Origin: Membranipora membranacea
Taxonomy: Eukaryota; Bryozoa; Gymnolaemata; Cheilostomatida; Membraniporidae
NCBI GenBank assembly: GCA_914767715.1
Contig: OU612065.1
Location: forward strand, 6,696,001-6,760,000
Reading direction: 5' to 3'
DNA length: 64,000 nucleotides
Below are positions 55,301 through 58,300 of the stretch, piece after piece. The position numbers were made by a program, and so were the translations under genes. Positions within the stretch are counted from its first letter, which is position 1; each line of letters opens with the position of its first letter. The notes beneath the pieces are model-generated. The model did not search any database and was not told the DNA's origin. It was given only the letters and a program-made list of their open reading frames with translations.

Positions 55301-58300
55301 TTACCTGTAAATCTGACAATCACTTTGCTCCAACCTCTATAACATTCTGCGCATGCTCAGCTCTGGGCATGAGCTGATCTCTGCAAAATTGAGTCTCGGA
55401 ATTCCGAAGCCATCTGATTGGCTACCTGCTCTGGTGACATACTCTCCAAAGTGTGCGGATTTGTTATTAATAGTTATCCTCTTGTCATTATTAGCTGATT
55501 TTGATTGACAGTTTATGCAGGGGATATCCCATTTCCCCTTTCCAAAGTTGCAATCAGAACCCAAACTAAACTCATTGTTCTTGCACATGCGCAAATTCAA
55601 GTCACGCATGATGCATACTTAGCCTTACGACACCTGCTTTGTGGTAATGATAGCCTAGTTTATCAGTGATCTACACGCCCAGTCAGATCACGAGAGTCAG
55701 TATGCCTCTATAATGTCCTGTCTAGTGGCTAAATATTTCTTCTTTATTCATGTCAATGTCTGCTAATTTAAATGCCCCAGGTGTATAGCAGAAGCATGAT
55801 TTTCCTAGCCACCTTGTCAGCATTTTCCATAATTTTGTAGTTGAATAGATTTTTCTTGAAGCCATCACTGATTGAGTATAATTGAGCGTCTGAGGTAGAG
55901 CGAGTGTGCTGGGTGCTTGAGTGTATGCTCTGTTGTTATCACTATGTTCACTAGTTTCTTTCTATTCTATCAGTTTTAATATTATATTCTCACTCACACT
56001 ACTTTTCATGTCTGACTATGATACCCTTACCCCACATTATACATGATTTTAGTCCATTCCTAAACTTTTAAGTTCTCTTCAACATTGTGATGTCTAAAAT
56101 ATTCTGATTGTGGTTAAAGCTGGAATAGAATTTTAATTGACTCCTCAATTGCATCCAGGCCCTCAAAGCAACCCCCAATATTTTGAGCTTTACAAATACA
56201 AAGCCAGTGAGATGAACTACTAAATCTCAGTTACATGCACAGACATCAGAAATCGACCGCAACTCCAACAATCCTGAAACCCTCAACCTTTTTTCTAAGT
56301 CCACACGTCCAGCAAGACATAGATTGATTATAGCCCTTATCAGATAGGCTAGTTGGGTGTAGGATTGTAATAATTACCTTAGATGAGTGGTGATGGGCGA
56401 TTTCATGGCTTTTTTCTATGTGTGATAACCCATACAGCAACAAGCAGTAGTGCATTGCGATAGAAATGCAAAACTCATAATGACCTCTTACTCCTTTACC
56501 CTTTTACTTCTAGCTGTCTGCTAACACCCGCTGCACTTCCAGACCTCTTTGTATTGTGAGCAACAACCCCCCCCCCCCCCTTCATCCACAAGATTTTGTA
56601 CCTGGAATGATTTATTTTGTTGACCAGATAGCACTATTTTTTACATCGTCCGCTGATCTCATAATCTTGATGTAATTATTTACAGTTACTGTATACATCA
56701 AATTCTGGAGGGTGTTCACCACTGCCATAATAATAGTATTATACATAGGGATCTAAAGGTATGTGGCGTTAACAGGTAGACTAAAGGTTTGACCTATCAT
56801 GCACGTTCTCTTGTGTGTTAGCACTAAATCACTCTTGCACTATATCTCTCCCTGCCATGTCTCTCACCGATTCACGCTTCCCTCACTTGAGTCGACAAAC
56901 AACTTACATGTTTACTGTATGTAGTCTGTAGGTAGGCTTTTACTTCCAACAATCTTTCCATCACTTACCAACGCCATATCTACAAAATTGCCAGGCATAT
57001 AATTCATATATCTGACTGAGACTGCTGATATGGCTGTTTCTGCCTCCATCATCTCTTCTAGCACCGATACACTCACAGTCCCTCGCACCACATTATACTG
57101 AAGGCCATGATATGCTGACTCTGTAAGCCCACATATCTCTCCCTCACTCACTCTCACCTGACATTAGAGTGTGAACCTGTGTGGTTGTCGTGAGCTGCTG
57201 TTGGTAACACCCTAACCCATCCTGCTGCTGCTGGATATATTCAAGCACTGCACTGTCACCTTCATCTCATGTTATTATTTCAGCCACTGTATGCAACAGA
57301 TACTAGAAAGTGTAGGTTACTGCCATGACAAAATGGTTGTCCATCGCGATTTGAAGGTAAATGTTCTTGTGTCAATCATTGGTGGCCACAATTCTTAGCT
57401 TGCTGCCCCAATATTATTTCACATCTTCATTTCATGATCATCATAAACAATCAGCACATTTTTACCCCTCAACAGTTTGCAGTAACAACCAACATTTGAT
57501 TTTCAGTTTGTTCCATTAATAATGTATCGTGTTAAATTTCTGAACACAAACTAGTTTTTGCGTCCAAAATCTTGATGGTGTGCTGGCAGCCAATCAAAAC
57601 TACTGAGACAAATCAATACTGTGATGACACAAAAGTTCAGTGAACTTTGTCAGCCTAGCCTTTGATAATTTGCCAAGATCGATGGGATAAAATTGTACTC
57701 CTGGTGACCTCCCATATGTCGACCTCTCTAATGTCGTTGGTCTAACTATTATCTCACTATTTACAGCCAGAGAATCTATTATTAGCGAGTAAGCACAAAG
57801 GTGCTGAGGTTAAACTGGCAGATTTTGGTCTAGCTATAGAAGTACAGGGTGATCAGCAGGCGTGGTTCGGTAAGAATTAAAGTATCCCCATCCCTAAACA
57901 TTCAGTGCAATTTGGAAATTGTGAGGAAAGCAATGTTGGAGCTGATCAGTAAAAATTGAACTAGATATGGGGAAACCAATTGAAAACTTTCTCGTGTCTG
58001 TAGGCTTAGAAGTTATGAGGGTATCCCAAGCCCATTTATCATGCTTTAGAAGTTGATGAATGTTTTGATACTGTTTGGCCAACATTAGTTGAATGATCCC
58101 ACAATCATGTAATTACTCTTATACATTCATGGTCCATAAATTTTATTTGGCAAATCACTCTCTAAATCTGTTCACAGCTAGATAATGGTGTTTAAAGTGA
58201 CATTAACATCAATGTGAATTCACTGAGAGAGACATTGAGCAATATGCCTGGTCAGAACACAGATAATGTTTCTGTTTGTCTCTATTATAGCTTATGATTA

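Follow-up and report, generated by a model that had tools for sequence, protein, structure and literature searches.

CaMKII diversity is usually considered in terms of splicing of the linker or of the vertebrate paralogues. In a 64,000-nucleotide stretch of the genome of the bryozoan Membranipora membranacea (contig OU612065.1, positions 6,696,001 to 6,760,000 of the forward strand; hereafter the window), the exon encoding the catalytic loop of the kinase instead occurs twice, which raises the question of whether one gene makes two kinases that differ at their catalytic centre. The reading favoured here, to which we give a probability of roughly 0.88, is that the two copies, exons 6a and 6b, form a mutually exclusive pair, duplicated in tandem, in what is apparently the sole Membranipora CaMKII gene, which would yield two full-length kinases differing at residues 113–137.

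The gene, which runs on the plus strand from 46294, is identified as CaMKII by the similarity of its product. The top PDB match of the kinase domain is a CaMKII (E 6e-182), and the first 23 rows among the 60 matches listed are all CaMKII chains, counting one named “hypothetical protein K11E8.1d”, which we take to be nematode CaMKII. Pfam Pkinase was found in the frame, the T286 autophosphorylation site (HRQETV) and the calmodulin-binding segment are both present, all CaMKII introns in the window are GT-AG, and the spliced kinase exons form an open frame of 314 aa. Two Watersipora proteins, P0001 and P0122, were compared by tblastn with the window and a further 20 kb at E up to 0.05, which placed the exons of the C-terminal hub (association) domain beyond the window, reaching 67551 when counted in window positions. 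When Watersipora CaMKII was searched against the whole genome (18 contigs, 339,339,785 bases; 89 of 292 first-look candidates scored, 89 matches listed), matches of at least 70% identity fell at the exons of this gene only, and CaMKII therefore appears to be single-copy in Membranipora. The exons are as follows.

46294..46355, plus strand: CaMKII exon 1, coding part (21 residues); gene model, tblastn of Watersipora P0001
47329..47423, plus strand: CaMKII exon 2, 95 nt; gene model, tblastn
49415..49474, plus strand: CaMKII exon 3, 60 nt; gene model, tblastn
53760..53814, plus strand: CaMKII exon 4, 55 nt; gene model, tblastn
54403..54468, plus strand: CaMKII exon 5, 66 nt, with the donor common to 6a and 6b, ending with two bases of a Ser codon; gene model, tblastn
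56686..56758, plus strand: exon 6a, 73 nt, 25 residues, from helix alphaE to the HRDLK catalytic loop; gene model, Watersipora X6
57284..57356, plus strand: exon 6b, 73 nt, 25 residues; gene model, Watersipora X5
57767..57869, plus strand: CaMKII exon 7, 103 nt, with the acceptor common to 6a and 6b, PENLLLASK...DFG; gene model, tblastn
58314..58492, plus strand: CaMKII exon 8, 179 nt; gene model, tblastn
58891..59013, plus strand: CaMKII exon 9, 123 nt; gene model, tblastn
59250..59333, plus strand: CaMKII exon 10, 84 nt, regulatory segment with T286 (HRQETV); gene model
59667..59709, plus strand: CaMKII exon 11, calmodulin-binding end (14 residues), GT donor from 59710; sequence, tblastn
63546..63632, plus strand: linker exon, candidate boundaries by eye (28 residues); 58–64% identity to Watersipora linkers

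Several other features lie within or beside the gene. A Ser/Pro/Thr-rich open stretch at 62247–62372 on the plus strand, with AG and GT at its ends by eye, is a candidate alternative linker exon, and drew no match from the two Watersipora proteins at E 0.05. An inverted repeat in intron 2 has diverged counterparts in intron 3 (47637–48055 and 51251–51650; ORFs matching on both strands) and looks like a foldback mobile element; intron 3 also holds a short tandem array on the minus strand (50602–50928; overlapping ORFs alike). Upstream, and on the same strand as CaMKII, is a voltage-gated channel gene (about 9681–38491), in which all five of the channel ORFs tested matched Ion_trans; the ORF at 24653–24940 has as its best match a T-type (Cav3) alpha-1H chain (E 4e-23). 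An ORF extending up to 44061 may be the tail of this channel gene, and the CaMKII start at 46294 lies downstream of it. A protostome-conserved tandem exon is described for Ca-alpha1T in the main text of PMC9741552; in channel domain II of the window (24940–26160) there is one pore-loop open stretch only, at 25372–25566, with no adjacent ORF pair at E 1e-3. At 173–577, on the minus strand, a reverse transcriptase fragment (RVT_1, E 1e-15) probably belongs to a non-LTR element.

Exons 6a and 6b are each 73 nt long, the former with acceptor ...TTATTTACAG and donor GTATGT, the latter with acceptor ...TTATTATTTCAG and donor GTAAAT. Both stand in the same phases and are separated by a 525-nt intron, and exon 7 begins at 57767 with a complete codon. 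Splicing in 6a alone or 6b alone leaves 314 aa of open frame. When neither copy is spliced in, the seventh codon after ADA is a stop, and when both are, a stop falls within 6b, so that each of these products ends before the DFG motif; exactly one copy is therefore required. The first-pass annotation had deduced this rule from the 73-nt length, and the spliced frames bear it out; the coordinates, lengths and 525-nt spacing it gave for the two copies hold on the sequence, and the acceptors, donors and HRDLK that it described as good or intact are there in both, each copy being flanked by AG and GT with splice-site strength judged by eye. Its count of 11 differing residues in 25 agrees with peptides that are alike at 14. 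A third copy of exon 6, sought by the tblastn comparison of the window plus 20 kb at E up to 0.05, did not appear; two copies only were recovered.

The two exons have diverged considerably, sharing 47 of 73 bases, and their 26 differences are distributed as 9, 2 and 15 over codon positions 1, 2 and 3. The 13 synonymous sites carry 12 of these changes and the 62 nonsynonymous sites 14, so that dS is saturated while dN is 0.27. The residues held in common are S113, C115, Q118, I119, L120, E121, V123, C126, H127 and HRDLK, and those exchanged are at 114, 116, 117, 122, 124, 125, 128, 129, 130, 131 and 132; the likeness of the copies is still detectable in an all-against-all comparison of the 1924 ORFs of the window (E = 2e-8). 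As a neutral control, 26 random substitutions were introduced into 6b in 20,000 draws: 60% acquired a stop, identical residues averaged 8.9, and only 0.13% combined an open frame with at least 14 identical residues. Because dS is saturated, dN is low, and neutral draws so rarely keep both frame and identity, the pattern of substitution indicates that 6a and 6b are old and are both held by purifying selection.

A second copy of the exon, which the first-pass annotation had proposed looking for in relatives, is indeed present there, in predicted isoform pairs from Watersipora and Octopus and in snail and annelid models that contain both copies. Among the database predictions for Watersipora, isoform X6 (P0006) carries 6a and X5 (P0122) carries 6b; each is 476 aa long, and their 10 differences all lie at 114–132 in exon 6. 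Compared with Watersipora, the window is identical at 25 of 25 residues in 6a and 24 of 25 in 6b, against 259 of 289 in the rest of the kinase part, so that between two cheilostome families the exon 6 copies agree at 49 of 50 residues. The predicted isoforms X18 and X19 of Octopus bimaculoides (P0027 and P0180) are 478 aa each and differ at seven residues, all in exon 6. In both relatives exon 6 alone distinguishes predicted isoforms of equal length, and they seem to have the same system as Membranipora. The choices at I/M116, G/S122, H/Y125 and I/V132 (window numbers) are the same in the Octopus and bryozoan pairs; more widely, G122 and I132 of window 6a are common to mollusc and annelid 6a copies, and Y125 of window 6b to their 6b copies. 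Finally, in a 2146-nt jgi contig (P0013), a 6a-type exon stands directly between sequence of exon 5 and of exon 7, as it would in spliced RNA.

The distribution of the exon was surveyed in 337 distinct proteins from three homologue searches, with 6a, 6b and octopus 6a as queries, taking the best 120 each of 7096, 7896 and 7988; as the second and third searches scored only candidates sharing most words, and the proteins come from the top of much longer lists, the counts should not be taken as a census. Among these best-scoring proteins, 22 of 337 contain two HRDLK/HRDMK stretches: two nematodes (Steinernema, Dictyocaulus), a snail (Nucella), an annelid (Owenia) and 18 vertebrate rows from 12 species, which include six rows from one fish (Dunckerocampus) and one lizard (Lerista). 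We take these to be gene models that have merged both copies of a tandem pair, and in several of them the two copies are separated by stray residues of the sort that a read-through intron would leave. The 6a signature EGVxxCHxxx[VI][IL]HRD occurs in 15 of the 337, its carriers being Watersipora, Nucella, one jgi contig, Octopus, Steinernema, Owenia, Solemya, Pinctada, Haliotis and Lottia. Neither this signature nor a second copy occurs in any arthropod row of the 337. Insects share one common 25-residue form of exon 6; horseshoe crabs and a scorpion have two, and because each is on its own contig these are read as products of separate genes. One further form, in P0209 (eukprot Em0012g965a, presumably a sponge gene name), combines 6a-like residues (VIH) with 6b-like ones (CM, YCH).

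Whether these pairs descend from one duplication was addressed by comparing upstream with upstream and downstream with downstream copies in animals that have both. Twenty columns bear on this comparison, which is carried by Membranipora, Nucella and Owenia; in Octopus and Watersipora the copies were assigned by sequence, and count as weaker evidence. In all eight cross-phylum pairs of bryozoan, mollusc and annelid compared, same-position identity exceeded cross-position identity by 7 or 8, with most of the excess carried by columns 122, 125 and 132 and with column 124 running against it in the two annelid comparisons. The seven lophotrochozoan 6a rows, together with the first copy of Steinernema on a long branch, fall on one branch (95/92 support) of an exon tree built from 29 peptides and 25 columns, in which 19 of 26 inner branches are open, copy 1 of Dictyocaulus has no settled place and the 6b rows do not come together as one clade. 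This pattern favours a single duplication as the source of the pairs in bryozoans, molluscs and annelids, making a lophotrochozoan or older origin of the exon 6 pair likely and a protostome origin possible. Between nematodes and lophotrochozoans the excess sums to +23 (p = 0.18), with columns 122, 124, 125 and 132 in agreement and 128, 129 and 130 in disagreement; taken singly, the pairs range from +2 to +4 for Steinernema and from -1 to +3 for Dictyocaulus, and the two nematode pairs perhaps stem from the same event as those of lophotrochozoans.

Position-matched similarity over the 20 columns gave no support for an origin shared by vertebrate and protostome pairs, with sums of -6 against lophotrochozoans, -6 against nematodes and -12 against both (p 0.67), and the vertebrate duplication may have been a separate event. 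Among vertebrates, delta-like (P0232) and beta-like (P0241) models, so labelled by resemblance (P0233 is named beta), show a same-position excess of +7 to +9, which would place the duplication before the split of those paralogues. A more inclusive scheme, which we regard as unlikely, would see the pair as a single ancestral bilaterian switch, with the splice choice kept by lophotrochozoans and nematodes, one copy retained by arthropods, and the copies divided between vertebrate paralogues (alpha/beta versus delta/gamma loops).

Exon 6 might also have been duplicated separately in bryozoans, molluscs and annelids, the copies then converging. Vertebrates apparently did duplicate it on their own, the lack of a single 6b clade would fit, and with just 20 columns to bear on the matter the one-sided column sign-flip tests give p values of 0.016 (bryozoan–mollusc), 0.03 (mollusc–annelid) and 0.06 (bryozoan–annelid); even so, convergence would have to explain an excess of 7 or 8 in every cross-phylum pair compared, the same residues at 122, 125 and 132, and the common branch of the lophotrochozoan 6a rows, and we consider it improbable. 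We likewise consider it improbable that the pair is mainly an on/off switch, in which nonsense-mediated decay of both-copy and neither-copy products lowers CaMKII and the difference between the proteins matters less. An exon length that is not a multiple of 3, and stops that precede DFG, would suit such a switch, yet it needs no second conserved coding sequence, and two distinct peptides have been kept apart across phyla.

Tandem exon copies can be pseudo-exons, and either 6a or 6b could in principle be a decaying or never-used duplicate that looks intact by chance. Against this, the frame, splice sites and HRDLK have survived saturation of the synonymous sites, the cheilostome copies are more alike than the remainder of the kinase, and each copy is used by predicted isoforms of other species, which together make it very improbable that one copy is a relic. 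The idea that the assembly wrongly placed two haplotypes, or a paralogue, side by side deserves hardly any weight, since 26 of the 73 bases are different between the copies and the Watersipora isoforms carry the same two exons. A functional, mutually exclusive pair thus remains our preferred reading.

Under this mutually exclusive reading, exon 5 would be joined to either 6a or 6b and then to exon 7, giving two kinases alike outside residues 113–137, and we infer that both exon 5–6 junctions are used in Membranipora and that the choice between them depends on tissue or stage. Because of the 73-nt length, both-copy and neither-copy transcripts have a stop before DFG and are presumably inactive and prone to decay; the frame and nonsense-mediated decay would for this reason back up the choice of exactly one copy. 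A gap of 525 nt is long for steric exclusion of exons. Because the copies are this far apart and the sites are all GT-AG, exclusivity would come from regulators or RNA quality control. RNA pairing among the flanking introns, for which just the last 300 nt of intron 5 were used, did not stand out in any of three pairs against 40 mononucleotide shuffles (30, 5 and 27 of 40 as strong), that of intron 6 with intron 7 coming nearest; there is one Rbfox-like TGCATG in intron 5 and none in introns 6 and 7.

The segment exchanged would comprise helix alphaE, the strand leading into the catalytic loop, and HRDLK itself, including D135, which we take to be the catalytic base. HRDLK, S113, C115, Q118, I119, E121, C126 and H127 are invariant in a 30-sequence alignment. 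An AlphaFold model of the Watersipora 6a isoform, built from a 30-row alignment, places a helix at 109–128, though the model is poor (mean pLDDT 64.7, residues 133–135 below 50). Among solved CaMKII delta, gamma and alpha chains, the swapped sites 117, 122, 124, 128, 129, 130 and 131 also vary and 114, 116, 125 and 132 do not; site 126 varies among the solved paralogues only, and is the same in 6a and 6b. As HRDLK is kept, and seven of the 11 swapped sites vary among vertebrate paralogues, the swap would most likely tune the enzyme rather than switch it off, altering stability, packing of the C-lobe and loop, a surface contact or catalytic rate, with both forms remaining active.

The pair would thus swap the helix and loop around the catalytic aspartate, in two versions that seem to have stayed distinct since a time before the divergence of bryozoans, molluscs and annelids, which suggests that animals with a single CaMKII still need two catalytic variants. 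It also offers a clean test system, in which two natural enzymes differ at one place, by 11 residues in Membranipora, 10 in Watersipora and seven in octopus. In vertebrates the exon 6 alternatives mark different paralogues, and catalytic differences specific to those paralogues could trace to this one small region.

Alternative, mutually exclusive kinase-domain exons are found in JNK and p38, involving another exon and another kinase family than in CaMKII. Tandem exons in the kinase domain of FYN confer differences in target binding and phosphorylation, according to the main text of PMC9741552; like the CaMKII pair they are mutually exclusive and reach into the kinase domain, in another exon and another kinase family. 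For age, the closest parallel is the T-type channel Ca-alpha1T/cca-1, a different gene, in which an ancient tandem exon has been kept in arthropods, nematodes and molluscs (main text, PMC9741552). That main text does not contain the word “bryozoa”, and has “mollusc” once, on a calcium channel. The CAMK2 passages of PMC4801060 concern linker and nuclear-signal exons rather than exon 6, those of PMC12925949 concern exon 18, and CAMK2 is absent from the main text of Abascal 2015 (PMC4465641). No published description of the exon 6 pair in a bryozoan or mollusc, nor any account of its deep conservation in lophotrochozoans, was found among the titles and abstract starts listed, in a collection with few papers from subscription journals.

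The nearest known system lies within CaMKII. The first-pass annotation had held that duplicated catalytic exons were not known in this kinase, which does not stand: a tandem-duplicated-exon substitution in human CAMK2D has been mapped on the kinase domain in PDB 6ayw, a chain that is a 302-residue kinase construct, and its residues adjoin the predicted ATP site (Martinez-Gomez et al. 2022, main text, PMC9741552). Hatje et al. 2017 (PMC5740500) also name CAMK2D as one of the genes in which mutually exclusive exons form four clusters, and the 18 two-copy vertebrate rows among the 337 listed proteins, from 12 species, count against the same claim. These vertebrate gene models duplicate the same exon 6, as in a fish model (P0232), delta-like by its first copy, that holds two copies; since fish and lizard models do so, the exon swapped in human CAMK2D may be exon 6 as well. 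The kind of exon swap described here is thus already known, within the CaMKII family itself: human CAMK2D and Membranipora CaMKII would both exchange a homologous exon inside the kinase domain, the vertebrate copies differing from those of protostomes in showing no position-matched similarity to them over the 20 columns.
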